A stretch of 38,015 bases of DNA, taken from NCBI GenBank assembly GCA_016790425.1, contig JAEUPF010000168.1, positions 1-38,015 of the forward strand. Direction: 5' to 3'. Shown here piece after piece: positions 1,692-22,636 of the stretch. Positions within the stretch are counted from its first letter, which is position 1; each line of letters starts with the position of its first letter. Both the position numbers and the translations under genes were made by a program. Source of the DNA: Rubrivivax sp. (lineage in GTDB: Bacteria > Pseudomonadota > Gammaproteobacteria > Burkholderiales > Burkholderiaceae_C). The notes beneath the pieces are model-generated. The model searched no databases. It saw only the letters and a program-made list of their open reading frames with translations, and was not told the DNA's origin.

Positions 1692-3179
1692 CTACTTGTT
1701 CAGGTCGCCCAGGCAGAGGTACTTCACCTCGACGTACTCCTCGATGCCCTGGCGCGCGCCCTCGCGCCCGAGGCCGCTTTGCTTGACGCCGCCGAAGGGC
1801 ACCTCGGCGGTGCTGATGAGCCCGGTGTTGATGCCCACCATGCCGTACTCCAGCGCCTCGGCAACGCGGAAGATGCGCCCGACGTCGCGGCTGTAGAAGT
1901 AGCTGGCCAGCCCGAACTCGGTGGCGTTGGCCAGCGCCAACGCCTCTTCCTCGGTCTTAAAGCGGAACACCGGCGCCACCGGGCCGAAGGTTTCCTCGCG
2001 CGCACACAGCATCTGGCTCGTCACGTCGGCGAGCACGGTGGGCGTGTAGAAGCGCGCGCCCAGCTCGCCGGCCTTGCCGCCGCCGACGACGACGCGGGCC
2101 CCCTTGGCCAGCGCATCGGCCACATGCCGCTCGACCTTGGCGATGGCGGCGTCGTCGATCAGCGGTCCCTGCGTCACGCCGGGCTCGAAGCCGGCGCCCA
2201 GCTTCAGCGAACGCGTCTTCTCGGCCAGCCTGGCGACGAACGCGTCGTAGATGCCGTCCTGCGCGTACAGGCGGTTGGCGCAGACGCAGGTCTGGCCGGC
2301 GTTGCGGTACTTGCTGGCCATCGCGCCTTCGACGGCGCTGTCGAGGTCGGCGTCGTCGAAGACGATGAACGGTGCGTTGCCGCCGAGCTCGAGGCTGAGC
2401 TTCTTGATCGTCGGCGCACACTGCGCCGCCAGGATGCGGCCGACCTCGGTGCTGCCGGTGAAGCTGAGGTGGCGCACGACGTCGCTGGCGCACAGCACCT
2501 TGCCGATGGCGATGCTGTTGGCCGCGTCGGCGGGCAGCACGTTGAGCACGCCGGCCGGCATCCCCGCGCGCTGCGCCAGCTCGGCCACGGCCAGCGCCGA
2601 CAGCGGCGTCTGCTCGGCCGGCTTGATGACCACCGGGCAGCCGGCGGCCAGCGCCGGCGCCACCTTGCGCGTGATCATGGCAATGGGAAAGTTCCACGGC
2701 GTGATCGCCGCGCACACGCCCACCGGCTGCTTGATGGCGAGGTAGCGCTTGCTGTTGTCGGTGCTGGGGATCGTCTCGCCGTAGACGCGCCGGCCTTCCT
2801 CGGCGAACCACTCGACGAAGCTGGCGCCGTAGGCCACCTCGCCCTTCGCTTCCGCGAGCGGCTTGCCCTGCTCGGCGGTCATGATGCGCGCCAGGTCGTC
2901 GGCATGCTGGTGCAGGAGCTGGAACCACTTCATCATCACCGCGGCGCGTTCCTTGGCGGTGCGGCGGCGCCACGCCGGCCAGGCGCGCTCGGCGGCGCGC
3001 ACGGCGGCCTCGGCATCGACGGTGCCGAGATTGGCCACCTGCGCCAGCGTGCTTCCGGTGGCCGGGTCGTGCACGTCGAAGCGGCCGTGGCCGGCCAGCC
3101 ATTCGCCGCTGACCAGGCCCTCGGTCTTCAGCAGGCCGGGGTCGGCCAGGGAGGCAAGCGGTGAAGTCTTGGTGTCCAT
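1692..3179 (-). CDS. gabD: NAD(P)+-dependent succinate-semialdehyde dehydrogenase
   Basis: A 495-residue aldehyde dehydrogenase; start ATG at 3179. It would oxidise succinate semialdehyde to succinate in the cytoplasm, feeding the TCA cycle from GABA or from hydroxyphenylacetate-type degradation. Visible motifs are the oxyanion-hole Asn in TPWNFPIAM (N163), the cofactor-binding GSTEVGR, the general base in LSLELGG (E264), and the catalytic Cys in AGQTCVCAN (C298). A second Cys two residues later (C300) matches the redox-sensitive pair described for GabD-type enzymes. Length fits GabD (about 482 in E. coli). It converges with the HpaI-type gene and is divergent from alaS across 128 bp. Related semialdehyde dehydrogenases (glutarate or methylmalonate) are less likely given the overall GabD-like sequence. 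Confidence 0.9.
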   Translation of the reverse strand: MDTKTSPLASLADPGLLKTEGLVSGEWLAGHGRFDVHDPATGSTLAQVANLGTVDAEAAVRAAERAWPAWRRRTAKERAAVMMKWFQLLHQHADDLARIMTAEQGKPLAEAKGEVAYGASFVEWFAEEGRRVYGETIPSTDNSKRYLAIKQPVGVCAAITPWNFPIAMITRKVAPALAAGCPVVIKPAEQTPLSALAVAELAQRAGMPAGVLNVLPADAANSIAIGKVLCASDVVRHLSFTGSTEVGRILAAQCAPTIKKLSLELGGNAPFIVFDDADLDSAVEGAMASKYRNAGQTCVCANRLYAQDGIYDAFVARLAEKTRSLKLGAGFEPGVTQGPLIDDAAIAKVERHVADALAKGARVVVGGGKAGELGARFYTPTVLADVTSQMLCAREETFGPVAPVFRFKTEEEALALANATEFGLASYFYSRDVGRIFRVAEALEYGMVGINTGLISTAEVPFGGVKQSGLGREGARQGIEEYVEVKYLCLGDLNK

Positions 3180-3269
3180 CGGCGGGCGCTCCGGGTCGGC
3201 GGGGGGAGCGACGATAGCAAGTGGCGCCGGGCCAGTGCCCCGCCGGGCGGCCGCAGGAGGGGCGGCAGC

Positions 3270-3275
3270 GATAAT
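3270..3275 (+). promoter_or_regulatory. Possible -10 element for alaS
   Basis: GATAAT matches the sigma-70 -10 consensus at 5 of 6 positions and lies 32 bp before the alaS ATG, in the 128-bp gap shared with divergent gabD. No convincing -35 hexamer is found 16-18 bp upstream, so this is a weak call. Confidence 0.3.
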
Positions 3276-3307
3276 CCGACGCTCACTGCGCCGCTCGAGC
3301 CTGCCCG

Positions 3308-5962
<2,655 letters not shown>

Positions 5963-5963
5963 C

Positions 5964-6015
5964 GCGCCCGCCGCTGCTGCGGCTGTGCGCAGCCGTTGCA
6001 GCAGCGGGCGGGCGC
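5964..6015. terminator. Large stem-loop directly after alaS
   Basis: It starts one base after the alaS stop. The 17-nt left arm (5964-5980) pairs with 5998-6015 with one unpaired G. Inside lies a second hairpin, ggctg/cagcc (5981-5994), so the whole 52 nt can fold almost completely. It is also downstream of the minus-strand patatin gene, so it may terminate both. No T-tract is present. Confidence 0.55.
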
Positions 6016-6040
6016 GCCTGAGGCAGCGCGGCTCGCCGCG

Positions 6041-6080
6041 GCTCACCGGGCCGCACCGGGCCGCACCGGGCCGCACCGGC
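6041..6080. repeat. 10-bp tandem repeat, about four copies
   Basis: Units of ccgcaccggg at 6051, 6061 and 6071 (last base changed) are preceded by a degenerate copy (gctcaccggg) at 6041. They lie between alaS and the end of the patatin gene, six bases past the latter's stop. Confidence 0.8.
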
Positions 6081-6085
6081 CAGCA

Positions 6086-8137
6086 TCACAACGGCGCGCG
6101 CAACCGCATCTCCGGGTCGGGCACGGGCCTGAAGTCCTGCGCCACGGCCTGCGCGAAGACCTGCTCCAGGCGTTCGAGTTCGCGCAGCAGCTCCTGCAGC
6201 GACCGCTGCTGCGCCGTGTCGAGGCGGCGGCCGTCGCCGTGGTCGCGCAGCGGCCCGCGCTCGCTGGCCGCTGCGATGGCGCGCTGCATCGGTGTGCTGC
6301 GTGGCGCCGATGCAGCGGCGCCGGCCAGGCCGGTGAGACGCTCGCGCAGGCCGCCGATCAGCAGGTGCAGGCGCACCCAGCGCTGCTCGCGCCAGGCGTC
6401 GCTCTCGCGCCCGTCGCGGTCGGCAAAGTGGGCCACGAACGCCTTGCCCGCCTGCGTGCCGTAGCGGTGCGCCATGCCGAGGATCTGCTCGCGCGGCATG
6501 GCGATGTTCAGCCCGCCTTCGCCCCGTTGCAGCAGCAACCGGGCGACGCGGTTGCGAACGTGCGGCAGCCGGAAGCTCGTGCGGTCACGCCAGTCCAGCG
6601 CACTCGTCGCGAGCGCGCCCGCGAAGCCCAGCAGCACCGCGGCCACCTTGCCGGCGCTCGGGCGGGGCTTGCCGGCATGGGCGGGGTTCGCTGCGTCCAG
6701 GGGGTCCGCAGCGTCGGGCTCGGCGGCGCTCGCCGCGGCCGCGGGGTCGAACCGGTTCCAGTTGTCGCCCCAGCCCTGGTCGTGGAACTCGGGCAGCCAG
6801 ATGTCCTGGCCTTCCCGGTAGGGGTCGCGGCGGTCCAGCCACAGGCCGAAGGTCGGCCAGCGCGGCAGCGCGGCGTCGAAGAGGTGGATCGGGAAGTTCG
6901 ACGACACGCCGCCGTCGCTGAACCAGCAGCGCTTGAGCGTTCTGTGCGCCTTCGGCGCTTCGTAGTCGATGGCGTACAGCGGCACGGCCGCGAACAGCAG
7001 CGGGAAGCTCAGGCTCAGCCGCGCCGCGACGGCCAGCGGCAGGTCGGCGCCGGGCAACTGCAGGAAGCCCTCGGTCTGCGGGCCCGGCGGCGGGTCGGAG
7101 TTCGAACGCACGGCATAGCGCGGCGCTGCGTCGACGAGTGCGGCCAGCACGCGCGGCGGCAGGTAGTCCACCAGATCCTCGGGCCGGAAGAAGAGCCGGC
7201 TGGTCTCGTGGTTCAGCGGCAGGCGGTAAGGGCGGCCATGCGTGACGTTGCTCGTGAGCATCTGCAGGTTGATCGAACGGCGCGGCGGAGGGTCGTCTTC
7301 GCTGCACTGCCCCGGCTCGGCGCCGGGGTGCGCCGGCGCGTTCCACAGGTCGCGGAAAGTCAGCGGGCGGTCGTTCACGTCCAGGCCCGCGCTGCGCTGG
7401 ATCGCTTCGTGCAGCCACTGCGAGATGCCCGGGCGCGGGTCGTCCTCGCTTTGCGGCACGAGGGTGCCGCCTTTGCACAAGCCCAGGCCGTTGCCGATGA
7501 CGCCTTCGCGGATGTCGCGCCACAGCGCCAGCGTCAGGCCGGCGAGCGCGCCGAGCGGCACCGTCAGCAGCGCGAGCAGGCAGGCGCCTTTCCAGGCGTC
7601 GCCTGCGGCCACGGCGGCGACGAGCGCCACCACGAGCGCAGCGAGCGCGAGGCCCAGCGCCGCCCCGGCGACACAGGGCCCCGCGTAGACCTGCCCCACC
7701 TTGCGCAGGCCGTGCACGAAACCCTGCTTCGCGCCGGCCTCGACGCTGCCGCGGCCGAACCAGGCCCAAAGCGCGATGAGGCGCTTGCCGCGCGGCGCCG
7801 TCTGGAACAGCGACAGCATCCGCGTGCCCCCGCCGCGCAGCGGTTCGGCCAGCGCTGCCGGAGCGCGGCGCAGCGCCTCGAACGGCCTTTCGATCCCGGT
7901 GCGGCGGCCGTACTCGGCCGCGGCGGCCAGCGCCGCGGCCATCGCGCCCACCGAGGTGCCGCCGATGTTGCGGAAGCGATAGTGGCGCGCCAGCTCGACG
8001 ATGGCCCACGGGTAGACGACGCCGCTGGCGACGCCGCCGGTGAGCACCAGGTCGCAGAAGCGGTCGGCCGGCGGACCAGCGGGCTCCAGCGGCGGCGGCA
8101 CCGGCGCCACGTCGTCGCCGGGCGCGACCTCCTTCAC
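6086..8137 (-). CDS. Patatin-like phospholipase/acylhydrolase with central membrane segments
   Basis: A 683-residue protein starting at GTG 8137, which overlaps the stop of the DyP gene by 4 bp (translational coupling). The patatin fold is shown by the oxyanion stretch LVLTGGVASGVVYP (residues 31-43), the nucleophile elbow GGTSVG (Ser62) and the catalytic Asp in FSDGGVSSNFP (Asp408), the Ser-Asp dyad of this family. Patatins cleave acyl chains from membrane lipids. Two hydrophobic stretches at about 154-178 and 183-205 sit between the nucleophile and the Asp, so a membrane-bound insertion is likely. The C-terminal region (residues 480-683) is charged and unassigned. There is no signal peptide. 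As the last gene of the P450-DyP-patatin operon it may supply or release the lipid acted on by the two haem proteins; that role is inference. Confidence 0.85.
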   Translation of the reverse strand: MKEVAPGDDVAPVPPPLEPAGPPADRFCDLVLTGGVASGVVYPWAIVELARHYRFRNIGGTSVGAMAAALAAAAEYGRRTGIERPFEALRRAPAALAEPLRGGGTRMLSLFQTAPRGKRLIALWAWFGRGSVEAGAKQGFVHGLRKVGQVYAGPCVAGAALGLALAALVVALVAAVAAGDAWKGACLLALLTVPLGALAGLTLALWRDIREGVIGNGLGLCKGGTLVPQSEDDPRPGISQWLHEAIQRSAGLDVNDRPLTFRDLWNAPAHPGAEPGQCSEDDPPPRRSINLQMLTSNVTHGRPYRLPLNHETSRLFFRPEDLVDYLPPRVLAALVDAAPRYAVRSNSDPPPGPQTEGFLQLPGADLPLAVAARLSLSFPLLFAAVPLYAIDYEAPKAHRTLKRCWFSDGGVSSNFPIHLFDAALPRWPTFGLWLDRRDPYREGQDIWLPEFHDQGWGDNWNRFDPAAAASAAEPDAADPLDAANPAHAGKPRPSAGKVAAVLLGFAGALATSALDWRDRTSFRLPHVRNRVARLLLQRGEGGLNIAMPREQILGMAHRYGTQAGKAFVAHFADRDGRESDAWREQRWVRLHLLIGGLRERLTGLAGAAASAPRSTPMQRAIAAASERGPLRDHGDGRRLDTAQQRSLQELLRELERLEQVFAQAVAQDFRPVPDPEMRLRAPL

Positions 8138-9549
8138 TCGGGGTCCTCGCGCAGGTCGGCGAAGGCGCGGTTGTCGGCCATCTGCACGAGCGCCGTCAGG
8201 CTCGGGTAGAAGAGGTAGGCGATGCCGCGCGTCCGCGTGAAGGGGGCCAGGCCGCGCAGCATCAGCGGCTGCCCGGGCGCGGGCCGCGGGATCTCGAAGC
8301 CGCCGTCGCCCGCTTCATGGGCGCCGATGAGCGGGTCGCGGGCGCCGCCGCCGTCGCGGCTGCCCATCGGCACGCGGTCGCCCCATTGCGCGAGCAGGTG
8401 CTCGTACTGGTCCTCGATCGAAGCGCAGAAGAATTGGCCGATCAGGCCGCGGTCGCCTTCGGGCCGCTCGCGGCTCCACGGCTGCCCGTAGGCCATGCCC
8501 CGGCGCAACAGCGGCCGCGAACGCGCATGCGCGATCACGTCGCCGCGCGGATTCATGCGCCGCACGTGGCTGCCGAACGGGCAGCGGTGGCCTTCGGGAT
8601 CGGCGCTGTAGTCGAAGTCGGCGAGCGGCCGCGCGCCGTCGCCCGCGGCCAGCGGGCGGCCGTTGGGGGCGCGCCCGCACAGCTTGCCCTTGACCCAGTC
8701 GGCGCTCTCGCCGGCCGCCGCGGCGGCGCGCGCGACGAAATCCTCGAACCCGGTCACGTCCTGCTCGATGTGCTGCAGCACGCCGAAGCTGCCGTTGTGG
8801 AAGAAGGCGCGCAGCTCGGCCGGCCAGACGCGATCGGCGGGGCCGCTGAGCCACGGGTTGGCGCCGCTGTCCTGCGCGTGGCCGAGCACGAACTCGCCGG
8901 CCGCGTGCTTCGAGGTCGGCTTCAACGCGGCCATCGTCTTCGCGTCGGTCAGGCCCTCGATGCCGATGCGCGCCAGCCCGTCGCGGTAGCCGAAGTGAAC
9001 GCGCTGTCCGGGCAGGCTCTTCGCTTCGATCTCGGCGCCCACCTGCACGCCGTGGCGGCCGGCGAGGGCGCGCACGGCCTGCGCGGGCGCGGCCAGGGCG
9101 TCGTCGTGAAGCGCGTGCAGGCTCAGCACGGCATCCAGGCGCATGAACGCAAAGCCGGCGTCCCAGTGCGCCGGCGCATCGCGGCCGCTGGCCGCGGCGT
9201 GGCTGGCAGCGCGCTGCGGCGCGCCGGCGAAGAACGCTGGCGCCTTGGCCGCGAAGCACGACAGCACGTGCGGCAGCACGCGCGAACGCTCGAGCCCGCG
9301 GCGGGTGAAGCCCAGGCTCGCCTGGTGCGGCGGCGCGGCGGGCGCGTCGCAGCGGCTGGGCCGCAGGCGCTCGTCGCGCAGCAACGCGTGCAGGAAGCGC
9401 AAGGCATCGGCTCGATCGCCGAAGCCCAGGCACAAGTGCCGCGCCGCTCGCCAGCGCGTGCCGCACAGCACGAGGCGCTGCACGTCGCCGAAGGCTGCCC
9501 CCGCGGGCTGCGGCACGGCCCGCGGCAGCGCCGTCAGGGTCAGCGTCAT
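8134..9549 (-). CDS. DyP-type (dye-decolourising) haem peroxidase
   Basis: A 471-residue protein; ATG at 9549 lies inside the end of the P450 gene (4-bp ATGA overlap) and has AAGGGG upstream. The family signature GXXDG is present as FGYRDGLA with the catalytic Asp190. The proximal haem ligand is expected at His328 in GSHVRRMNPR, a motif shared by long DyP peroxidases. The C-terminal part (RGLIGQFFCASIEDQYEHL, then LRGLAPFTRTRGIAYLFYPS) also fits long-form DyPs. There is no Tat or Sec signal, so the protein is cytoplasmic unless carried by a partner. DyPs use peroxide to oxidise bulky substrates; a few act as oxygenases or hydrolases. Coupling to a P450-like gene and a patatin gene suggests lipid or lipophilic substrates, by inference. 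Confidence 0.85.
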   Translation of the reverse strand: MTLTLTALPRAVPQPAGAAFGDVQRLVLCGTRWRAARHLCLGFGDRADALRFLHALLRDERLRPSRCDAPAAPPHQASLGFTRRGLERSRVLPHVLSCFAAKAPAFFAGAPQRAASHAAASGRDAPAHWDAGFAFMRLDAVLSLHALHDDALAAPAQAVRALAGRHGVQVGAEIEAKSLPGQRVHFGYRDGLARIGIEGLTDAKTMAALKPTSKHAAGEFVLGHAQDSGANPWLSGPADRVWPAELRAFFHNGSFGVLQHIEQDVTGFEDFVARAAAAAGESADWVKGKLCGRAPNGRPLAAGDGARPLADFDYSADPEGHRCPFGSHVRRMNPRGDVIAHARSRPLLRRGMAYGQPWSRERPEGDRGLIGQFFCASIEDQYEHLLAQWGDRVPMGSRDGGGARDPLIGAHEAGDGGFEIPRPAPGQPLMLRGLAPFTRTRGIAYLFYPSLTALVQMADNRAFADLREDPE

Positions 9550-11408
9550 GCCGGCCCCTTCTCGTCGTCGCGGCGGATGCGCGAAGCCTCCTCGCGCATG
9601 ATCTGCGCCGCCTCGCTCTTCGGGTAGGCGCTGAAGAAGTAGCCCATCGCCGGGGCGCGGTTGTAGCGGCGGATCAAGGCGACGAAATCGTCGGGGAACT
9701 TCGCCACCGGCTTCGGCGGCGCGTCCTCGATCGACTCGAACAGGAGGTCGAAGAGGTCACCCACCTTGAGCGCGAAGTGCTGCACGTAGGCCGAGAAGTC
9801 GCCGTCGTAGACGGTGTGCAGCACGAGCACGGTGTCGCGCTCGATGAACTCGAACCACGCAAAGTGCACGTGGCGCGCCTCGCGCAGCGCCTCGTCGATG
9901 CGCGGCGCGCCGGCGCGGATCACCTCGCGCAGCCGGGCCGCGTGCTCCTTGACCGGCGGCTTGATGCGCATCGCCACGTTCAGCGACGACTGCGCCACGC
10001 GCTTCTCGCGGCGGTGCGTCAGCGGGTAGCTCTCGCAGATGAAGCCCCAGCGCTTGTTCAACCCGATGACGCTGGCGTCGACGGCATCCAGCCGTTCCGC
10101 CAGCCCCGGCAGGCCGATGACGAAGCGCACCGTCTCCACCAGCAGCGGCCAGGCCAGCACGCGCCCGATGCAGCCATGGCGGCCGCCCTCGTCCAGCAGG
10201 CCCCAGACGAGCGGGTCCTCGACCTCGGGCGTCGGCGAGCCGGCGGTGCCGCCGCCCAGCGCCAGCAGCAGCTGGCCCCATTGCGGCACGCGGCCCTCGA
10301 ACGCCGGCTGCACCGCCACGCGCGGCAGGAAAGGAATCGGCGGGTTGCGGTTCAGCGCGGCGGCCAGCAGGCGCTGCCATTCGGCGCGCTTGTTGGTCGG
10401 CCGCGCGCGCGGCTCGGAAAGCGCGAGCTCCCTGGCCCGCCTGAAGGCGTCTTCGCGGTCGGCGAAGAGCGCGCGCACGGCGATGCAGACGGCGGCCTGC
10501 ACGTTGCCCACGGTGCCGGCAACCGCGCCCATCGCCACCACGGCGCGCTGCTCGCCGTTGAGCGCGGCGTCGAACGCGGCGAGCCTGGCCAGCACCGGCA
10601 CCAGGCCGGACAGCGCCAGCGCGCCCGGGGCTTCCGTGCCGACGAGCGCGTCTTCGTCGTTGGCCGCGTAGGCGTCGATCAAGGCCGCGGTTCTCGCCAG
10701 CAGCGGCCCCATCGCTGCCTTCGCCGCCGGCAGCGCCAGCGGGTCGGTCACGAAGTGGCGGCCGAACACCTGGTAGACGAGGGCGTGGTAGGAGGCGCGC
10801 AGCGCCCGCTCCAGCAGCGGGAAGTCGGCGCGCGCATAGCCGAACAGGTACTGGCACAAGCGCAGCGCGGTCTGCTCGGCGAACGCAGCGAGGTCGAAGT
10901 TCGCCGCGCGCAGCGACAGCGACGCCGCTGCGCCGCAGGCGTGGTGGCTGACCGCGCAGAGCGTGTCGAGGTCGCGCGGGAAGGCGTGTTGCAGCGCCTT
11001 CACCTGCGCTGCGTGCGCGGCCGCGCCGGTGGTCGCCGGGTCGAGCGCGAGCATGAAGTTGCCGCCGCCCAGCTCGCCATAGGTGCGGTTGGAGAACGCC
11101 TTGCCGCCGTCGAGCAGCGCCTCGGCGACGAGCGCGCGCCGGGTGACGAGCCAGGCCGGCTTGTGGCCGGTGGGCGGCGGCGCGCGCGGGTGCTCGTCGT
11201 CGGGGCAGCACGGTTGCGCCTGGGCGGCGTCGCGGCTGGGGAATTCGAGCACGCCGCCGCGCTCGCCGCTGATGCGCTCGAACAGCGCCGCGCGCTGCCC
11301 GTCGTCACCGAGCCACGCGAAGAGCAGGCGGTTGCGGGCGTCGTCGTTGGGCGCCCCGTCGAAGTCGCCGAGGTCGACGCGGGGGCTGTCCGCGGGGTTC
11401 TTGGCCAA
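9546..11408 (-). CDS. Cytochrome P450-like protein with a C-terminal ferredoxin-fold-type domain
   Basis: A 620-residue protein. The start is TTG at 11408, supported by AAGGAGGG 4 nt upstream; no ATG or GTG is available nearby. The first 450 residues resemble a P450: an I-helix-like AVAGTVGN near residue 299, NPPIPFLPR near 355-363, and the haem-Cys loop GGRHGCIGRVLAWPLL with Cys413. The K-helix ExxR motif is not intact: the aligned residues before NPP read AALN, so both Glu and Arg appear replaced. A second domain (about 475-610) has strands and motifs such as VHFAWFEFI and VYDGDFSAYVQHF, a ferredoxin-like pattern I associate with peroxidase-linked proteins. No reductase domain is present. 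It is the first of three coupled genes, 51 bp after the large regulator. Peroxide-driven or isomerase-type P450 chemistry is possible; this is inference. Confidence 0.7.
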   Translation of the reverse strand: MAKNPADSPRVDLGDFDGAPNDDARNRLLFAWLGDDGQRAALFERISGERGGVLEFPSRDAAQAQPCCPDDEHPRAPPPTGHKPAWLVTRRALVAEALLDGGKAFSNRTYGELGGGNFMLALDPATTGAAAHAAQVKALQHAFPRDLDTLCAVSHHACGAAASLSLRAANFDLAAFAEQTALRLCQYLFGYARADFPLLERALRASYHALVYQVFGRHFVTDPLALPAAKAAMGPLLARTAALIDAYAANDEDALVGTEAPGALALSGLVPVLARLAAFDAALNGEQRAVVAMGAVAGTVGNVQAAVCIAVRALFADREDAFRRARELALSEPRARPTNKRAEWQRLLAAALNRNPPIPFLPRVAVQPAFEGRVPQWGQLLLALGGGTAGSPTPEVEDPLVWGLLDEGGRHGCIGRVLAWPLLVETVRFVIGLPGLAERLDAVDASVIGLNKRWGFICESYPLTHRREKRVAQSSLNVAMRIKPPVKEHAARLREVIRAGAPRIDEALREARHVHFAWFEFIERDTVLVLHTVYDGDFSAYVQHFALKVGDLFDLLFESIEDAPPKPVAKFPDDFVALIRRYNRAPAMGYFFSAYPKSEAAQIMREEASRIRRDDEKGPA

Positions 11409-11412
11409 GTGT

Positions 11413-11420
11413 CCCTCCTT
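11413..11420 (-). promoter_or_regulatory. Strong Shine-Dalgarno that sets the TTG start of the P450-like gene
   Basis: On the minus strand AAGGAGGG ends 4 nt before TTG at 11408. This near-perfect site is the reason for accepting a TTG start and indicates independent translation initiation after the upstream regulator gene. Confidence 0.75.
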
Positions 11421-11459
11421 GTTCTTGTTCCGGGCGCCCGGGTCGCAGGCCTGGAGCCT

Positions 11460-14400
11460 TCAGGCCAGCGAATCGGCGAGCGCCTGCGCCCGCTGCACGT
11501 CGCGCGTGGAGCGGCCTTCGTGCCAGCGGGCCAGCAGCGGCAGCAGCAGTTTGCGCGCCCGCGCCTGCCGGCCGTCGCCGGCCATCAGCTTGGCGAATGA
11601 CGTCGCGGCCCGCAGCGCGAAGCCGAGCCGGCGCTGCCGCAGCGCCACGACGCAGGCCTGGCGCAACGACGACTCGGCCGCCGCGGCGTCGCCGCGCGCC
11701 AGCGCCAGCTCGCCGGCCAGCCGCCGCAGCTCGGACTCGAGCTGGCGCTCGCCGGTGCGCTCGACCACGGCGAGGCCCTCGTCGACGCAGGCCTGGGCGC
11801 CGTCGAGGTGGCCGGCGAGGATCGAGCCTTCGGCCTGCAGCGACAGGTACAGCGGCCGCGACACCATCGACCCCGTCGACAGCCATTGCTGGTAGCCGGC
11901 CTTCATCTCCGAAAGGCCCGGCCCGAAGTCGCCCTGTTCGCACAGCAGCCGGCCGCGCATGCAGCGGGTGATCGCCAGCCACACCGGGAAGCCCGCGTCT
12001 TCGCAGACGCGGATGCACTGGTCGGCGCGCGCCAGCGCCGCTTCGGTCTCGCCGCGCAGCAGCAGGATGCTGACGCCGTAGGCCAGTGCCACGGCCTGGC
12101 TGAACTTGTGCTCGAACTCGGCGGCCATCGCGATGGCGTGGTCGATGCGCGCCTTCGCGGCGTCGGGCCGGCCGAGTTCCCACAGCCCCCATGACGAATA
12201 CGCCATGCACATCACGCCCGGGTCCTGCACGCCGAACAGGCGGTGCAGCGCCGGCGTGTACAGCGCCAGGCCGGCATCCATCTCGCGCATCGTCGCGCGC
12301 AGCGCGCCCTGGTGGAACAGCGTGCACGCCAGGCCCCAATGGGCGTGCAGCCGCTGCCGCACGTCGCCCGAACGGGCGGCGATCGCCGCCGCCTTGCGCG
12401 CGTGCTCCAGCGCCAGCGCGAAGTCGGCGCGCATGAAGCGGTAGGCCTCCAGCCCCATCTCGACCTTGAAGCGCGAGGCTTCGTCGCCGATGTCTTCGCA
12501 AAGCCGCGCCGCTTCGCGGTACGCCTGCAGCACCGATTCGGCCCCGTAGCCTTCGGTGGCGATGAGGCGCGCGGCCAGCAGCAACTGCAGCCGCAGCGCC
12601 GTGCGGTCGCGCTCGACGCCCGGCTCCAGGTGTGCCAGCACCGCCAGCGCGTGCCGCAGGTGGCTGATCGCTTCCAGTTCGGCCGAGCGCGCGGTGGCAT
12701 TGCGCGCCGCCAGCTCCCATTGCGCCAGCGCGTCGCGGTACTGGCCGGCCTCGGTCTGGTGCAGCGCCAGCAGCTCGGGGCGCCGCTCGGCCAGTTCGGG
12801 CCAGCTCTCGCGCAGCAGCGCCACCACGCGCGCGTGCAGCGCCTGGCGGTCGCGCGCCCACAGCGACGCATAAGCCGTGTCGCGGATCAGCGCGTGGCGG
12901 AAGGCGTACAGGCCGTTGCCTTCGGCGCGCACCAGCCCCGAGTCCTCCAGCACCTTGAGCTGCTCGGCCAGCGTCGTGGCGTCGAGCGCGAAGCGGCCCG
13001 ACTTCAGCAAAGCCGCCAGCAGTTCGAGCGGGAAATCGCGCCCGAGCACCGCCGCCACCTGCGCCACCGGCTTGGCGAAGCCCAGGCTGTCCAGGCGCGC
13101 CATCAACAGGTCCTGCAGCGAAGCGGGCACCGTCTCCAGCGCCACCACGCCGGCTTCGGGCCGGTCGACGCCGAGCTCCAGCGCCAGGCGCGCGGCTTCC
13201 TCGAGGAACAGCGGCACGCCGTCGCCGCGCGTGGCGAGCCGGTGCACGAGCCCCGCCGGCAGCAACGCGTTGGCGCAGACCAGGCTCACCAGTTCGCGCG
13301 CCGCTTCGGGGTCGAGGCCGGCCAGTTCGATGCGCTCGATGCGCTCGATCCATTCGGGGTGCGCGAAGCGTGCCGGCACGCCCGGCGCCTCGGTACGCGC
13401 GGTGAGCACCACCAGCAGCCCCGGCCCGCCCTTGCGCCCGGCCAGGTGCTCAACGAACTCGCGCATCGAGGGGTCGACCCAGTGCCAGTCTTCGACGACC
13501 AGGCAGCACGGCTCGTCCTGCGCGATGGCGGTGAACCAGTCGACGAGCAGGTTGCGCAACCGCAGCGCGGCCTGCCCGGGCGGCCCGGCCGGCCCTGCGG
13601 GGGGCAACTGCGGCGCAAGGCCCAGCAGCGCCGTCAGCAGGGCCAGCGGCTCGCCGCTGCGGGCGGGCTCGGGAAGCGCGGCGGCAAGCTTGCCGATGGC
13701 TGCGGCGCCGGTTTCGTCGGCGCCGATGCCCAGCCAGCGCTTCAACGCCTCGGCCAGCGTGAGGAAGGCGCTGGCGCTGGCATCGGCGCGGCAGCGGCAC
13801 TCGAGGATGCGCACGCCGGCGCCCGCCAGCCGATGCCTGAACTCGCGCACCAGGCGCGACTTGCCCATGCCGGCTTCGGCCTGCACCACCACCAGCCGGC
13901 ACAGGCCCTCGCGGGTTTCGCTCCAGGCGGCGTCGAGCCGCGCCAGCTCGGCCTGGCGGCCGACCAGCGGCGTCAGCCACGGCAGCCTTTCGAGGCGGTC
14001 GCTTCCGGCGCCGGCGCTTGGCCCGAGAACCCGATAGAGCGGCTCGGTGGCCTCGATGCCCTTGAGTTCGGGCCGCGTCGCCAGCGGCTCGAGTTCGAAG
14101 GCGTGCGCGACGAGCCGGCGCGTGGCCGCGGCGATGAGCACCGTGCCCGGCGCCGCCGCCTGCTGCAGCCGCGCCGCCAGGTGGATCGACAAGCCCACCG
14201 GCTGGTCGTCGCGCACCGCCACCGCCCCGGTGGCGATGCCCACGCGCACCGAGACGTGCAGCTCCGACACGGTGCGCGCGATCGCCAGGCCGGCCTCGAC
14301 CGCGTGCACGGCCGCATCTTCCACCGCCGCCGGATGGCCGAAGTAGCACATCACGCCGTCGTCGCCTTGCGGGTCGTCGGGCTTGCCGCCGTGGCGGCGC

Positions 14401-15455
14401 ACGACGGCCGTGCAGCGCGCATGCAGGCTGGCCAGCATCTCGGCATAGGCCTCGTCGCCGAGCTCGCGCAGCGCCGTGGTCGAGCCGACGAGGTCGAACG
14501 ACAGGCTCGTCACCTGCCGGCGCGAGGTGGGCGAGGGCGCACGCACGAAGCGCAGCGCCGGATCGCCATACAGCCGGGCGTCGCCGCGCGCTGCCGCTTC
14601 GCCCGAGGGCGGTTCGTGCGGCCGGTGCGGCCCCTGCGGCCCGTGCGGGCCGTGCGACCGCTGCAGCCGGCGCACCGCTTCGCCGACGCTGGCGCCGGCG
14701 GCCAGGTGGCGCAGCAGTTCGCGCCGGGCCGGCTCGACCTCCTCGCCGGCCGCATCCAGCGCGACGACGGCCGCGCCGTGGTCGACGGCTGGCGCCAGGC
14801 GCGCGGCCGCCTCGGGCCGGTCGAGCACGATGAGCCGCGCCCGCCGCGGCGGCGGCAGCGCCTCGAGCGCTCGGGCGACGGGGTCGATGCCGAGTCCCGC
14901 CAGCACGAGCACATGGGCCGCCTGCACGGCCTCGCGGCTGCGCGGGTCGTCCAGCAACGGCGCGGCCACGGCTCGCACGGCGGCCGGGGCCTCGGCCAGG
15001 GCCTGAACCAGCGACTGGACGAGCGCTTGAACCGGCGCATCGGCTGCCGCCAACGCCTTGCCGCCGTGCACGAGCAACACCGCCAGCGCGTCGGCCGGTG
15101 GCGCCTCCACGACGGCGTCCGGTTCGCTCTCGGAGACGATCTGGCGGGCGACGATGAAGCGATCGGCCAGGCGCTCCTCGCCGAGGCCGAGGGCTTCCCA
15201 GGCCACCCCGTCCAGCGCCTCGTCGACCTGGATGTTGAGCGTGCGCGGCGCGCTGCCGGCCAGGTGCCGGGCCAGTTCGCTGCCGAGCAGCCGCTCGGCA
15301 GCGATGGGGGTGCACGCTTCCCGGGCGGCCTGGACAAGCGCGGCCGGCCGCCGTGCCCGCCAGGCCAGCCGGCGCCCGTCACCGAGGAAGAACTCGACGA
15401 CGTCGGCGTCGAGTTGCGCGCTCAGTGTCCATGTCGGCAGGGCCGAAGTCTCCAC
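11460..15455 (-). CDS. CHAT-like / class III nucleotide cyclase-like / AAA ATPase / TPR signalling protein
   Basis: A 1331-residue cytoplasmic protein, GTG start at 15455 (an ATG four bases upstream is in another frame). Domains in order: residues 1-305 resemble a CHAT caspase-like domain (LNIQVDEALDGVAWEAL at 73-89; HVLVLAGLG at 181-189, where a catalytic His is usual but Leu188 is present). Residues 315-475 form a class III cyclase domain: first metal Asp321 in SFDLVGSTT, second at 365/366 in QGDDGVMCYFG, Arg429 in HLAARLQ, but His425 replaces the usual Asn. A Walker A motif AEAGMGKS (Lys532) and Walker B CLVVEDWHW (Asp656) define a STAND-type ATPase, and the C-terminal third is TPR-like helical repeats. 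Such proteins act as signal-responsive switches or regulators. It lies 51 bp before the P450-like gene on the same strand and is divergent from a protein kinase gene. Confidence 0.85.
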   Translation of the reverse strand: METSALPTWTLSAQLDADVVEFFLGDGRRLAWRARRPAALVQAAREACTPIAAERLLGSELARHLAGSAPRTLNIQVDEALDGVAWEALGLGEERLADRFIVARQIVSESEPDAVVEAPPADALAVLLVHGGKALAAADAPVQALVQSLVQALAEAPAAVRAVAAPLLDDPRSREAVQAAHVLVLAGLGIDPVARALEALPPPRRARLIVLDRPEAAARLAPAVDHGAAVVALDAAGEEVEPARRELLRHLAAGASVGEAVRRLQRSHGPHGPQGPHRPHEPPSGEAAARGDARLYGDPALRFVRAPSPTSRRQVTSLSFDLVGSTTALRELGDEAYAEMLASLHARCTAVVRRHGGKPDDPQGDDGVMCYFGHPAAVEDAAVHAVEAGLAIARTVSELHVSVRVGIATGAVAVRDDQPVGLSIHLAARLQQAAAPGTVLIAAATRRLVAHAFELEPLATRPELKGIEATEPLYRVLGPSAGAGSDRLERLPWLTPLVGRQAELARLDAAWSETREGLCRLVVVQAEAGMGKSRLVREFRHRLAGAGVRILECRCRADASASAFLTLAEALKRWLGIGADETGAAAIGKLAAALPEPARSGEPLALLTALLGLAPQLPPAGPAGPPGQAALRLRNLLVDWFTAIAQDEPCCLVVEDWHWVDPSMREFVEHLAGRKGGPGLLVVLTARTEAPGVPARFAHPEWIERIERIELAGLDPEAARELVSLVCANALLPAGLVHRLATRGDGVPLFLEEAARLALELGVDRPEAGVVALETVPASLQDLLMARLDSLGFAKPVAQVAAVLGRDFPLELLAALLKSGRFALDATTLAEQLKVLEDSGLVRAEGNGLYAFRHALIRDTAYASLWARDRQALHARVVALLRESWPELAERRPELLALHQTEAGQYRDALAQWELAARNATARSAELEAISHLRHALAVLAHLEPGVERDRTALRLQLLLAARLIATEGYGAESVLQAYREAARLCEDIGDEASRFKVEMGLEAYRFMRADFALALEHARKAAAIAARSGDVRQRLHAHWGLACTLFHQGALRATMREMDAGLALYTPALHRLFGVQDPGVMCMAYSSWGLWELGRPDAAKARIDHAIAMAAEFEHKFSQAVALAYGVSILLLRGETEAALARADQCIRVCEDAGFPVWLAITRCMRGRLLCEQGDFGPGLSEMKAGYQQWLSTGSMVSRPLYLSLQAEGSILAGHLDGAQACVDEGLAVVERTGERQLESELRRLAGELALARGDAAAAESSLRQACVVALRQRRLGFALRAATSFAKLMAGDGRQARARKLLLPLLARWHEGRSTRDVQRAQALADSLA
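14610..14654. repeat. 9-bp coding tandem repeat inside the regulator gene
   Basis: Five degenerate units of cggcccgtg encode His-Gly-Pro-type tripeptides (HGPHGPQGPHRPH, residues 268-280). This forms a flexible linker just before the cyclase-like domain. Confidence 0.75.
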
Positions 15456-15777
15456 GCATCCCCCGGGCGGCGGTCCTAGCGGATGCGCCGCACTTCGCTA
15501 CTCGCTGTTCGCTGCCTGCTCGGGTGCTTGCCCTTGGCTCTCGTTGCTTGCTCTTGCTGTGCTGCTTGCGCTTGCTCTCGTGCTCGCCCCGGCTCTTCGC
15601 CCCCGCCCCCGCCGGGCGACAGTATCCGAAACACCGCCGTTCGCCTATGCGTGACAGCGCGCTGGTCGGCCACGAGGCGCCCGCCCCGTGCACAGGGGTT
15701 GACAACGCCGCCGCAGCGCCGAACCATCGCGCCGCCGCACACCCTCCCATTCACCCGTGCGGTGAACGGCAGGGACC
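15456..15777. other. Divergent intergenic region with a 118-bp A-free tract
   Basis: This 322-bp gap separates the GTG of the minus-strand regulator from the ATG of the plus-strand kinase, so it should hold both promoters. From 15501 to 15618 the plus strand has no A at all and is built from variants of cttgct and ttcgct. If transcribed toward the regulator, the leader RNA would contain a 118-nt stretch without U. The right part (15619-15777) has normal composition and a possible promoter for the kinase. I see no coding sequence here. Confidence 0.7.
15699..15727 (+). promoter_or_regulatory. Possible sigma-70 promoter of the kinase gene
   Basis: A perfect -35 hexamer TTGACA (15699-15704) is followed after 17 bp by AACCAT (15722-15727), which keeps the conserved second A and last T of the -10 but matches only 3 of 6. 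The ATG of the kinase is 50 bp further on. Confidence 0.35.
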
Positions 15778-16731
15778 ATGACGCTGGGCAAGCGCATCGG
15801 GCGGTACCCCGTCATTCGCGAGATCGGCCAGGGCGCGGTGGGCACGGTCTACGAGGGGTTCGACCCGGCCACGGGAAGCAAGGTCGCCATCAAGGTGCTG
15901 CGCGCCGAGCACCTGCCCGACCACCGTGCCGACTCGGCCGCCTCGCGCTTCGAGCGCGAAGCGCAGGCGACGCGCCGGCTGCAGCACCCCAACATCGTCG
16001 CCGTGCACGAGTACGGCGAGCAGGGCCGCATCAAGTTCATCGCCATGGAGTACCTGCACGGGCGCGAGCTGCGCACGCTGATGCGCGAGCGCGGCCGCTT
16101 CGCGCTCGACGACGCGGTCACGGTGACGCTGCAGATTCTCGATGCGCTCGGCCACTCGCACCGGCACGGCGTGGTGCACCGCGACATCAAGCCCTCCAAC
16201 GTGATGGTGCTCGAAGGCCTGCAGATCAAGGTGATGGACTTCGGCATCGCGCGCATCGAGAGCGCCGCCTTCACGCAGATGGGCACGCTGCTCGGGACGC
16301 CGGCGTACATGTCGCCCGAGCAGTTGCGCGGGTTGCCCGCCGACGGCCGCGCCGACCTGTGGGCGGCCGGCGTCATGCTCAGCGAGATGCTGGTCGGCCG
16401 CAATCCGTTTGCCGGCGCCACGGCGCTGGAGGTGACGCGCAACGCGCTCACCGTCGAGCCGCCGCCGGTTTCGGCGCTGGTGCCGGGACTGCCGCCGTCG
16501 CTGGACGCCGTGCTGGCGCGCTCGCTGGCCAAGGACCGCGACCTGCGCTTCCACGAGGCGGCCGACTTCGCCGCCGAACTGGTGCGCGCGGTGGCCGCGG
16601 CAGCCGACGCGGTGGACCTGGAACTGGCCGCCGACGCCGGGCCCGCCGCGGTCGACCTCGACCTGGCGGCGCCGCCCGCCGGTGCGGCGGCGGCCGCAGC
16701 GACGCTGCCGCTACCAGCTCGCGGCGAATGA
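15778..16731 (+). CDS. Hanks-type serine/threonine protein kinase
   Basis: A 317-residue protein with a complete kinase domain at residues 10-275. The Gly-rich loop is IGQGAVGTVYEG, the ATP-anchoring Lys is K39 in VAIKV, the catalytic loop is HRDIKPSN (D136), and the metal-binding Asp is D154 in MDFG. The activation segment ends GTPAYMSPEQ. The last 45 residues are Ala-rich (AVAAAADAVDLELAADAG) and include no membrane helix or sensor domain, unlike many bacterial PknB-type kinases, so the kinase is probably soluble. It is divergent from the CHAT/cyclase/ATPase regulator, suggesting that the regulator or the oxidative enzymes are its targets (inference). Its 3' end overlaps the convergent lipoprotein gene by 21 bp. 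Confidence 0.93.
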   Translation: MTLGKRIGRYPVIREIGQGAVGTVYEGFDPATGSKVAIKVLRAEHLPDHRADSAASRFEREAQATRRLQHPNIVAVHEYGEQGRIKFIAMEYLHGRELRTLMRERGRFALDDAVTVTLQILDALGHSHRHGVVHRDIKPSNVMVLEGLQIKVMDFGIARIESAAFTQMGTLLGTPAYMSPEQLRGLPADGRADLWAAGVMLSEMLVGRNPFAGATALEVTRNALTVEPPPVSALVPGLPPSLDAVLARSLAKDRDLRFHEAADFAAELVRAVAAAADAVDLELAADAGPAAVDLDLAAPPAGAAAAAATLPLPARGE

Positions 16732-17955
16732 GTTCGGGTCGAAGCGCGCGTCGCGCGTGATCGCGCCGAGGTCGACGAACTCGAAGTCGCTCATGCGCAG
16801 GCTTTGCACCTGCGTGACGGTGGCACCGCTCCAGGCCGCGCTCGGGTCGCCCTGAACGTAGAGGTCGCTGCCGATGTCGGCCACGTACAGGCCATGGCGC
16901 TGCATCGCGGTGGCGAGCGCCCTGGCCTGCGTCGTCCAGCTGGCCGGAATCGCGAAGCCGGCCTTCAGCCGCAGGAGCGCGCCGAACGGGATGCCGCCGC
17001 TGCTGTTGCCGGCGCGGTGCCGCGCCGGCCAGGTGTAGGCGTTGGCGATCACCGCGTCACGGAAGGTCACCCGCAGCGCGTGCGCGATCTCGCCGGCCGC
17101 GGCCTCGCCGGCGCGCGCCAGCAGCGGCGCGATCGGCAGCCCGGCGGCGTCGCCCGAAGTCCAGCCGTCGGGGCGCATGGCGTTGCTGTTCAGGTCCCAC
17201 GCGGCGGTGGCGTACGCGGTCCACGAGCCGCCGGCGGTCTTGTAGGTGAAGTAGCTCTCCCACAGCCGGCAGGCGCCCTGCTCGACGACGAGCACGTGCC
17301 GGTCGCCGCACGTCGACGGGTCGTTGCAGGTGCCGCCTTCGGCCTTCAGCACCGCTTCGCGCGGGATCGGGAAGCGCAGCGCTGCCGGGCTCTGCGCCTG
17401 GCAGTTGCGGGCGATGGCAAAGCCGTTGGCGGCGCCCGCGGCGGCGACGGCGCAGTCGCTCTCGTCGGGCGCGCCGCCGGCGGTGAAGGCCAGCGCCGGC
17501 CAGTCGGTTTGCGGGCTGGCCGCCGCCAGCAGATTCATCGGGATGCCGTAGTAGTCGGCCGCCGCCGCGTTTTCGTTCGTGCCCCAGTCGGCGTGCAGTG
17601 CGCGCGTGGCGCCGATGGCGGCGATCCAGGCCGCACTCGAAGCGTGCGCCGGGAAGCGCGACGTGTCGTCGATGCGGGTGTTGAACACGGCGCTGGCCGG
17701 GAACGACGGGCAGGCGCCCAGCATCGCCGCGCCGGCCGGCGCCGGGGCCGGGGCCGGCGTCGGCGACGGGGAAGGCGAGGGCGACGGTGTCGGAGAAGGG
17801 GCGGGACCGGGACCGGGAGCGGGGCCGGGAGCAGGGGCCGGCGCTCCACTGCCTTCGCTGCCGCCGCCCGAGCCACCGCATCCGGCCACCGCAACGGCGG
17901 CGGCCAAGGTCAGCAGGGCGAGCGAGGCGCGGCGCCGGATCGAGGCTGAATGCAT
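16711..17955 (-). CDS. Secreted lipoprotein of unknown function with a Pro-rich linker
   Basis: A 414-residue protein. ATG at 17955 is chosen because it gives a standard lipoprotein signal (basic MHSASIRRR, hydrophobic core, lipobox AVAGC with Cys26); the open frame continues upstream to 18048 but overlaps the end of the chemotaxis gene. Residues 27-75 are a Gly/Ser stretch and a long Pro-Ala/Pro-Ser/Pro-Thr linker. The remainder is a conserved-looking globular domain containing VFNTRIDDTSRFPAHASS, GDRHVLVVEQGACRLWESY, LRPDGWTSGDAAGLPI-type and GEIAHALRVTF segments. I recall similar secreted proteins in soil bacteria but know no function. Its last 21 bp overlap the convergent kinase gene. Gene call is firm, function unknown. 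Confidence 0.8.
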   Translation of the reverse strand: MHSASIRRRASLALLTLAAAVAVAGCGGSGGGSEGSGAPAPAPGPAPGPGPAPSPTPSPSPSPSPTPAPAPAPAGAAMLGACPSFPASAVFNTRIDDTSRFPAHASSAAWIAAIGATRALHADWGTNENAAAADYYGIPMNLLAAASPQTDWPALAFTAGGAPDESDCAVAAAGAANGFAIARNCQAQSPAALRFPIPREAVLKAEGGTCNDPSTCGDRHVLVVEQGACRLWESYFTYKTAGGSWTAYATAAWDLNSNAMRPDGWTSGDAAGLPIAPLLARAGEAAAGEIAHALRVTFRDAVIANAYTWPARHRAGNSSGGIPFGALLRLKAGFAIPASWTTQARALATAMQRHGLYVADIGSDLYVQGDPSAAWSGATVTQVQSLRMSDFEFVDLGAITRDARFDPNSFAASW

Positions 17956-18025
17956 GCTGCGCCGAGCATGCACCGGCCGCGGCCCGCGCCGCCGGCCCAA
18001 GCTGTGTCCAATGGTTCGCGGCGGG

Positions 18026-19591
18026 TCAGGCGGCCGCTGCCGCCGCACCGGCGCTGAAGGCGTCGATCGCCGACTTCAGCCGCTCGGCCTGGTCGCGCAG
18101 GCTCTGCGCCGCGGCGGCCGACTGCTCCACCAGCGCCGCGTTCTGCTGCGTCATCTGGTCGAGCTGGCTGACGGCGGCGTTGACTTCGGTGAGGCCCTCG
18201 GACTGCTGTGCCGCCGAGGTGGTGACGTCGCCGATGCGGTCGGAAACCTCGTGCACCGCGGCGCTGATGCGCTCCATCACCGCGCCGGCACCGGCCACCA
18301 GGCGCGCACCCGATTCGACGCGCTCGACCGAGCTGCCGATCAGCACCTTGATCTCGCGCGCCGCCTCGGCGCTGCGCCCCGCGAGGTTGCGCACCTCGCC
18401 GGCCACCACCGCGAAGCCGCGCCCCTGCTCGCCGGCCCGCGCCGCCTCGACGGCGGCGTTCAACGCCAGGATGTTGGTCTGGAAGGCGATGCCGTCGATG
18501 ACGCCGATGATCGAGGCGATCTTCTTGGAGCTCTGGTCGATGTCGTGCATCGTCGAGCGCACCTGCGTCACGACGTTGCGGCCTTCGGCGGCCACCTGTG
18601 CGGCCGACAGCGCCAGCGTGCTGGCATGGCGGGCGGCGCTGGCACTGGCGCCGACGGTGCCGGTGAGCTGCTCCATCGAGCTGGCGGTCTGCTGCAGATG
18701 GCTGGCAGCCTGTTCGGTGCGCGCCGAGAGGTCGTCGTTGCCGGCGGCCACTTCGCCCGAGGCCAGGCGCACGCTCTCGACGGTTTCGCGCACCGTGCCC
18801 ACCAGCTGCGACAGGCGCTGCTGCATCGTGGCGAGCGCCACGATCATGCTGCCCAGTTCGTCGCGCCGCGGTGCCGGCAGCGCGGCAGCGAGGTCGCCGG
18901 CGGCGATGCCGCGCATCGAGCGTTCGACCTCGCGCAACGGCCGCAGCAGCGAACGCAGCATCAGCGCGCTGGCCAGGCCGATGCCCAGCAGGCACGCGAG
19001 GCTGGCGGCGACTCCGGCGCCCAGCAGCGTGCGGCTGGTGGCCGCGGCTGCGTGGTAGCTGGCCGCCGAGCGCGCCTGCGTCAACGGGATCAGCGCCTGC
19101 AGCGGCTTGACGGCGCCCTTGTGCAGCACGGCCCAGTCGTCTTCGAGCACTTCGGTGAGGACGGCCTTGTCCTTGGCCTCGTAGCCGCGCTCGAGCTTGG
19201 CGAGCGTGGTGTCGACGAGCTTCCACTGCCCGCGCAGCTGGCCGTAGGCCGCCAGCGCCTCGCCTTCGCCGAAGGTGACGGCGGCGTGGCGTGCCAGCGC
19301 CGACCATTGCTCGGCGAGCGCCTTGCGCGTCTCGCGCAGGTGATTCAGCGAGCCGGGGACCGGCAACTGCTCCAGCAGCACCGCGGCGGCGCGGAAGCGC
19401 ACCTCGAGCAGGCCGTTCTCGATGCGCTGCATGCGCGTCAGCGCGTCGATGTCGCGTTCGTAGAGCCCCTCCAGCGCGCGCTGGTTGACCTGGTTCGACC
19501 CCGCGGCCAGCGCGGCGAGCACGCCGATGCCCACCAGCGCGAGAGCGGTCAGCGCCATCAGGCGGGCGCGGATCGAGAGCGAGAACTTCAT
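18026..19591 (-). CDS. Methyl-accepting chemotaxis protein (4HB-type sensor)
   Basis: A 521-residue transmembrane chemoreceptor; start ATG at 19591. A membrane helix (about 11-31) is followed by an all-helical periplasmic domain of about 155 residues that looks like a four-helix bundle, a second helix (about 189-212), a HAMP domain (about 213-265), and the cytoplasmic signalling hairpin. The hairpin tip [20 protein letters not shown] with [17 protein letters not shown] is the CheA/CheW contact region and is fully conserved. The C-terminus ends in an Ala run with no NWETF-like tether for CheR. The ligand cannot be read from sequence. Neighbouring genes are not chemotaxis genes, so this is a stand-alone receptor. 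Confidence 0.95.
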
Positions 19592-21482: not shown

Positions 21483-21489
21483 GGCGGGA

Positions 21490-21498
21490 CCCTTCCTT
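21490..21498 (-). promoter_or_regulatory. Shine-Dalgarno supporting the TTG start of the Rieske gene
   Basis: AAGGAAGGG on the minus strand, 7 nt before TTG at 21482. Its first base is the last base of the upstream stop codon, so the two genes are probably translationally coupled. Confidence 0.7.
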
Positions 21499-22535: not shown

Positions 22536-22619
22536 CGTGCGTCTCCTGCCATCGTGCATCGTGGGCGTCGGGCGCAGGATATCGGCGGCGCCCCCGCCGG
22601 CACGCGCGTGCTTACCCGG

Positions 22620-22635
22620 CCGCCGCTCGCGGCGG
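22620..22635. other. Hairpin just after the flavoprotein stop
   Basis: Perfect 7-bp arms ccgccgc/gcggcgg with a 2-nt centre, directly after the flavoprotein stop codon (22637-22639) and 85 nt before the Bug gene. It could lower read-through or stabilise the upstream mRNA. There is no T-tract. Confidence 0.35.
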
Positions 22636-22636
22636 T

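Follow-up and report, generated by a model that had tools for sequence, protein, structure and literature searches.

Do four genes lying side by side in Rubrivivax sp., encoding a STAND-type regulator, a P450-like protein, a dye-decolorizing peroxidase (DyP) homologue and a patatin-like phospholipase, belong to one system, and does that system act on lipids? The genes occupy positions 6086 to 15455 of the window, i.e. the whole 38,015-nucleotide stretch that was analysed, which is an entire 38 kb contig (C18; GenBank JAEUPF010000168.1, assembly GCA_016790425.1) from a genome bin that is 82% complete. A first-pass annotation had described minus-strand P450-like, DyP and patatin genes with overlaps of 4 base pairs (bp), a large regulator gene 51 bp ahead of the P450-like gene and a divergent kinase gene. 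The coordinates agree with this description, with overlaps at 8134–8137 (patatin/DyP) and 9546–9549 (DyP/P450-like) and a gap of 51 bp between the regulator and P450-like genes. The regulator, P450-like, DyP and, in most loci, patatin genes are a conserved unit, and lipid oxidation is the best available explanation of it, over peroxide clean-up, other specialized metabolism and defence.

Conservation and relatives of the gene unit

Gene order was compared in 21 other loci with a full-length P450-like gene, counted after the removal of duplicates (L002 = L040, L005 = L051, L001 = L154). The order regulator–P450–DyP was kept in all 21. The patatin gene comes next in 13 (L001, L002, L003, L005, L038, L042, L044, L048, L049, L050, L052, L054 and L155); the contigs of L004 and L053 end before the patatin position, and the gene can thus be judged in 19. 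For the patatin and kinase genes, 'not found' denotes that blastp, at a threshold of 1e-4 (for L155, 1e-8), gave no match in the stretch fetched. Of the 20 loci in which the overlap between the P450-like and DyP genes was measured, 13 show one of exactly 4 bp (starts picked by script; those of L043 and L053 were not resolved), and in L049 DyP and patatin are a single reading frame. When pairwise protein distances are compared between the four genes across 12 loci, the window among them, the correlations are r = 0.94–0.96 (none of 2000 permutations as high), a result that joint inheritance predicts and that equally fits all of the genes tracking the species tree. The first-pass annotation held that the block would be a chance cluster if the enzymes were rarely neighbours elsewhere. 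A chance origin was rejected in view of the constant order, and fusions of DyP with P450 and of DyP with patatin exist; the genes form a true cluster, and one of wider extent than had been supposed.

A search with P0003 gave five named loci. Matches were obtained in 25 of 399 genomes of the same GTDB family, 18 with the full-length protein (17 besides its own, in 12 other genera) and seven with the C-terminus only. Within the genus, three of 60 genomes, the source genome included, carry the full-length gene. At an E value of 1e-10 the order (399 genomes) and the phylum (398 genomes) gave no further full-length match, only P450-core stretches or the C-terminal domain, here termed Ct. The family, order and phylum searches, and the phylum sampling for DyP loci described below, scored the best three to six candidates per genome, so that misses are possible. 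The alaS regions of 13 same-genus genomes were fetched (out of 31 searched, among them the source genome), and none has the block there; one of the 13 genomes (G684) carries it on another contig. In L072 the kinase gene and the gene at 16711 lie farther from alaS in swapped order, so that no clean empty insertion site can be read.

The pairing of a DyP with Ct and a second haem enzyme extends beyond these loci. A tool-drawn phylum sample of 239 genomes contained 15 other DyP loci, spread over 14 of them. A second haem enzyme is fused or nearby in 11 (a P450 in six, a catalase-related protein in five), Ct is present in 11, and Ct or a second haem enzyme in 13, leaving two with neither (L136 and L146). 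All seven family genomes with Ct only also pair DyP with a P450 (six) or a catalase-related protein (one), and the four loci fetched of five with Ct all have DyP and a catalase-family protein. On plasmids Ct is a free protein of roughly 150–250 amino acids (aa) adjoining DyP; 12 plasmid DyP loci, hand-chosen from the 40 listed of 74 records, contain Ct in nine cases and a second haem enzyme in six. The catalase profile was built from eight proteins of plasmid loci and L057. The P450 profile (p45g) was built from six partner P450s, and L055 and L058–L061, which are among them and also counted, therefore match by construction. Independent support comes from Pfam p450 for L055, L058, L059 and L060. 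L056 lies outside the profile and matches it at 3e-44 with no Pfam p450 match, and the P450 of L061 rests on a weak 'core' match (5.5e-5).

Single-chain versions occur in both orders: Ct–DyP–P450 in L056, L058, L059, L060 and L061, and P450–Ct–DyP in L106 and L140–L143 (the last being four genomes of one genus). L114 (P450 then DyP) and L148 (DyP then P450) show no Ct at threshold. A cyclase–TPR gene lies upstream of the fusions in L140–L143 and L106, the others being 54–94% identical to that of L140. L061, with a patatin, a Ct–DyP–P450 fusion and a cyclase–AAA–TPR regulator in a different arrangement, is a separate assembly of the same parts. The Ct–DyP–P450 fusions at L058:4600–7200 and L059:12106–14652 adjoin a regulator of a different type (Trans_reg_C – AAA/STAND – TPR) with a similar ATPase core. 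A Ct–DyP pair on a Gloeothece plasmid (L107:3801–5849) lies near TOMM biosynthesis genes, a possible evolutionary link, the window regulator resembling a TOMM kinase/cyclase model.

The coordinates are collected in Table 1. The kinase, which the first-pass annotation had counted in the block, was rejected as part of the system. It matches PF00069 at 1.6e-51 and, in PADLOC, kinase models such as PD-T4-6, but no blastp match to it was found in any fetched regulator–P450–DyP locus, some of the contigs being short. The same-genus genome G679, the closest by AlaRS among those searched, has an 81% identical kinase and no P450-like match anywhere. An open reading frame at 3128–6076(−) was rejected as a gene since it is antisense to alaS. 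A promoter and terminator scan was uninformative, with no promoter-like sites and two terminator-like sites against 3.5 expected. Elsewhere in the window, genes for a Rieske protein, a TctC-type receptor and an FAD-binding (fumarate-reductase-like) protein at 20298–24778(−) are probably a separate catabolic cluster. ARAGORN called a tRNA-Ala (ggc) of 92 bases at 30756–30847(+) inside an apolipoprotein N-acyltransferase-like reading frame, between its LNT_N and CN_hydrolase parts; this is likely a false call.

Table 1. Features of the locus and its flanks (window coordinates).
Feature	Position	Strand	Remarks
Aldehyde dehydrogenase	1692–3179	−	Flank on alaS side
alaS	3308–5962	+	Flank on patatin side
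Patatin-like phospholipase	6086–8137	−	683 aa; Pfam and motif residues
D-type DyP peroxidase homologue	8134–9549	−	471 aa; family profile and motif residues
P450-like protein	9546–11408	−	620 aa; divergent P450, residues 1–465; Ct, residues 466–620
Ct domain (residues 466–620 of P450-like protein)	9549–10013	−	Uncharacterized; beside many D-type DyPs, free-standing or fused
Regulator	11460–15455	−	1331 aa; domain matches; kept in 21/21 other loci
Hanks-type Ser/Thr kinase	15778–16731	+	Divergent neighbour; judged outside the system
Uncharacterized gene	16711–18048	−	Flank on kinase side, with chemotaxis receptor

Domains and motif residues of the four proteins

The P450-like protein on its own gave no match in a Pfam search. 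A profile of its 21-row alignment matches solved P450s, the best being CYP51 (4.8e-8). Foldseek was run with a weak structure model built from six sequences (predicted local distance difference test, pLDDT, 52.3; predicted template-modelling score, pTM, 0.41). The best E value was 3.5e-5, and the titles of 47 of the best 50 matches say P450 or CYP; the other three are DoxA, a P450 by profile match, and a fatty acid decarboxylase and a 2-hydroxyisoflavanone synthase, both of which we take to be P450s. The cysteine-ligand loop HxCxG (H411, C413 and G415) is invariant in all 21 rows. The K-helix ExxR, usually near-universal in P450s, is kept in 12 rows and lost in nine, including the window protein (AALN). 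On these grounds the protein can be classed as a P450 that is divergent and carries a further domain at its C-terminus. Searches of Ct against Pfam and the PDB gave nothing convincing, and hhalign found no similarity to the DyP N-terminal domain, so that an origin of Ct as its duplicate was rejected. The same poor model weakly predicts a β–α–β–β–α pattern for Ct.

In the I-helix, N302 is invariant (21 of 21 rows), Q304 is kept in 17 of 21 and no acidic residue stands ahead of N302, the window reading TVGN302V. MAFFT alignment with partner P450s placed N302 in the column of the canonical Thr and G301 in that of the Glu. According to PMC13049297, plant allene oxide synthase (Asn321) and prostacyclin synthase (Asn287, in 'TQGN287M') each have an Asn close to the haem iron, and HxC is present in fungal linoleate diol synthases. 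Together, N302 and the HxC motif fit a predicted hydroperoxide chemistry (hydroperoxide REARRANGEMENT).

The DyP scores below the cut-offs of TIGR01413 (2.1e-17; 63.4 of 100.5 bits) and of Pfam Dyp_perox_C (16.3 of 20 bits). Its family profile matches a solved DyP over the full length at 6.4e-57. In an alignment of 18 rows (L004, L049, L053 and L155 were left out), H328, D190 of the HFGxxD motif and R349/R350 are invariant; we take these to be the proximal haem His, the catalytic Asp and the distal Arg, respectively. The last Gly of the GxxDG motif is variable. The patatin matches PF01734 above the cut-off (1.4e-11), and its GGxxxG, GxSxG (S62) and DGG (D408) motifs are invariant in all 12 rows of an alignment that left out L049 and L155. 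Hydrophobic stretches lie at about residues 150–206.

The regulator consists of a degenerate CHAT-like N-terminus (about residues 1–300), a class III cyclase-like domain (about 308–470), an AAA_16 STAND-type ATPase (496–683) and a C-terminus aligning with TIGR03903, which we assume to be TPR-like. The first-pass annotation had read the protein as CHAT/cyclase/AAA/TPR. In this, the AAA_16 domain was borne out (5e-22, above the cut-off) and the cyclase weakly so (6.9e-4, below the cut-off); the domain search gave no CHAT match in the window protein, and CHAT matches were found in the N-termini of both relatives scanned (2.8e-6 and 1.3e-5). Against the PDB the N-terminus had no matches. The CHAT catalytic His and Cys appear to be lost in the alignment (judged by eye). 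Of the presumed cyclase residues (a metal Asp pair and a transition-state Asn and Arg), D321 and R429 are kept in at least 90% of the rows, and 20 of 21 rows carry His in place of the Asn. With the His and Cys of CHAT and the Asn of the cyclase seemingly lost, the regulator more likely acts as a sensor and switch than as a protease or a normal cyclase. Its cyclase–AAA–TPR part covers model positions 281–1264 of TIGR03903 at 1.3e-120, scoring 404.2 bits against a cut-off of 705.75. Membership of the TOMM kinase/cyclase family was rejected: the score is below the cut-off, the separate kinase is not conserved and no YcaO gene was found in the genome (82% complete).

Proposed function and its alternatives

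We tentatively propose, as a reading that falls somewhat short of probable, that the four genes are a signal-controlled cassette for fatty-acid oxidation of the oxylipin type, with the chemistry inferred and the product predicted. Oxidized fatty acids would then arise in a way comparable to the formation of hormone-like oxylipins in plants and fungi. The STAND-type regulator would sense a cytoplasmic signal and turn the system on. The patatin, by way of a hydrophobic hairpin, would release acyl chains from membrane lipid, and the DyP with Ct would oxidize the released unsaturated chain to a hydroperoxide. The P450, which has neither the I-helix acid–alcohol pair nor a redox-partner gene in the block, would use Asn302 to convert the hydroperoxide by rearrangement into a diol, an epoxy-alcohol, a ketol or an aldehyde. 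Possible roles of the product are signalling, antimicrobial action and membrane modification. A DyP partner that is either a P450 or catalase-related suits such a pathway because both folds include enzymes that rearrange fatty-acid hydroperoxides, as given for P450-fold members in PMC13049297 and for catalase-related members in PMC5617202.

Lipid genes also stand beside some of the related sets. L113 has a catalase–Ct–DyP order followed by a 4HBT-type thioesterase (3.7e-14, with weak acyl-ACP thioesterase matches), a different patatin and efflux genes. In L137 a gene of the oleate hydratase family (4.5e-196) is divergent from a catalase-related – Ct – DyP set (L137:3059–9092); this set also has a TetR-type regulator, related to those of L102 and L113. 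The lipid role suggested by the first-pass annotation is favoured by these genes and by the patatin in 13 of the 19 judgeable loci, and is disfavoured by the lack of matches to the patatin profile in the sampled and plasmid DyP loci.

Several observations weigh against the proposed oxylipin cassette. We know of no DyP that dioxygenates fatty acids. The patatin was not found in six of the 21 loci (L039, L041, L043, L045, L046 and L047), and its profile has no match in the 15 sampled DyP loci or in 16 plasmid loci; because of this lack of profile matches, the patatin is judged to belong to the local version of the system and not to DyP sets generally. The oleate hydratase occurs in only one of the loci scanned, and a second haem enzyme was not found in four of the 15 sampled loci (L134, near a contig end, L136, L146 and L147). 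The position of N302 is ambiguous by one residue, since HMMER alignment to CYP51 puts it one residue later than MAFFT does, and the P450-like model is too poor to place it. Sixteen partner P450s from outside the family were aligned; Asn is missing from this column in all of them, and five (L114 and L140–L143) have it one column on. The partner P450s of L103 and L105 keep the classical AGHETT, and that of L103 is adjoined by a ferredoxin and an FAD oxidoreductase, resembling ordinary monooxygenation. In coral allene oxide synthase (PMC5617202) a Thr precedes the distal His; by eye, all 14 catalase-related partners aligned lack this Thr, and the distal His itself is replaced by Asn in two of them (L144:5847–7118 and L145:8833–10029).

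In the four g261 loci (L039, L041, L043 and L045) a LigB-type dioxygenase-like gene, identified by eye, lies about 100 bases downstream of DyP, at the place of the patatin.

The same genes and identical chemistry would serve the clean-up of lipid peroxides, in which the patatin would trim damaged acyl chains and the DyP and the P450 or catalase-related protein would reduce or degrade hydroperoxides, for protection and not for signalling. Peroxides can be consumed by catalase-related proteins as well as by DyPs, and a glutathione S-transferase-like gene adjoins the DyP–P450 pair in L138. We consider this rather unlikely: the large regulator in all 21 loci suits an optional function better than housekeeping repair, as does the patchy spread (17 of 398 other family genomes and the few in the genus), and efflux genes stand by some related sets (L102, L113 and L116).

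Tailoring of another specialized metabolite (aromatic, terpenoid or ribosomally synthesized and post-translationally modified peptide, RiPP), where the patatin would act as an esterase or an acyltransferase, is unlikely. The likeness of the regulator to TIGR03903, the TOMM genes near the Gloeothece pair and a Methylorubrum set with a classical P450, ferredoxin and FAD oxidoreductase speak for it. The missing YcaO gene and the lack of a scaffold-building enzyme in the block speak against it, and acyl chains are indicated by the patatin here and, beside two related sets, by a thioesterase and an oleate hydratase.

An anti-phage or abortive-infection module, with a STAND/CHAT-like sensor, a cyclase-like domain, a membrane-damaging patatin effector and haem enzymes that increase lipid damage, is very improbable: STAND and CHAT-like domains and patatins do occur in defence systems and the distribution is patchy, but the phage response entertained in the first-pass annotation found little positive backing because PADLOC matched none of the patatin, DyP and P450 and gave only a weak PycC match to the cyclase domain of the regulator (8e-5). 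The presumed transition-state Asn of that domain is mostly His, and the four g261 loci have flanking genes in common (by eye), which is atypical of shifting defence islands although one genus is weak evidence.

The oxylipin cassette may be one case of a wider class. It is possible, but doubtful, that D-type DyPs accompanied by Ct and by another haem enzyme, either a P450 or a catalase-related protein, make up a class of bacterial oxylipin synthases that is widespread and as yet undescribed. The window set would then be a membrane-lipid-fed and STAND-regulated version and a bacterial counterpart of the cyclooxygenase/linoleate-diol-synthase cascade with a different first enzyme. Few enzyme systems that form oxylipins in bacteria are known, and such DyP 'peroxidases' are usually classed with dye or lignin oxidation. 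If the proposal is true, this DyP group gains a biological substrate, Ct gains a role and STAND/cyclase regulators are linked to lipid signalling; the natural substrate of D-type DyPs becomes a directly testable question.

Comparison with known systems

The first-pass annotation knew of no described system with this gene set, and the open-access literature, among the matches listed and in the parts of them available, likewise yielded no description of a DyP–P450–patatin or DyP–catalase-related oxylipin set. The regulator shares its cyclase–AAA–TPR part with the TOMM kinase/cyclase fusion TIGR03903 and differs from it in the low score, in a CHAT-like N-terminus that replaces the kinase and in a genome with no YcaO gene found. 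The oleate diol synthase system of Pseudomonas aeruginosa (10S-DOX/7,10-DS) likewise forms bacterial oxylipins by two haem enzymes; according to PMC4496055, those enzymes have two CXXCH haem motifs and are grouped with di-haem cytochrome c peroxidases. They are unrelated to DyP or P450. The full-length profile match to solved DyPs and the kept haem His and catalytic Asp and Arg are as in D-type DyP peroxidases, whereas the joining to Ct and a second haem enzyme and the score below the TIGR01413 cut-off set the protein apart.

Two eukaryotic systems resemble the proposed cassette in design. In corals, a catalase-related allene oxide synthase or hydroperoxide lyase is fused to a lipoxygenase, so that a catalase-related haem protein is paired with an oxygenase as in the catalase–Ct–DyP sets; in the latter, DyP replaces the lipoxygenase and the Thr before the distal His position is lacking in the 14 aligned proteins. 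The fungal linoleate dioxygenase–P450 fusions, of the linoleate diol synthase (LDS) and PpoA type, differ in that the first enzyme here is a DyP and not of the cyclooxygenase-like fold, and in that the present set is bacterial, has the extra Ct and has a predicted activity. The likeness to them lies in the joining of a haem oxygenase or peroxidase to a P450 that has HxC and, in the I-helix, an Asn, and in one-protein fusions, which occur in both.

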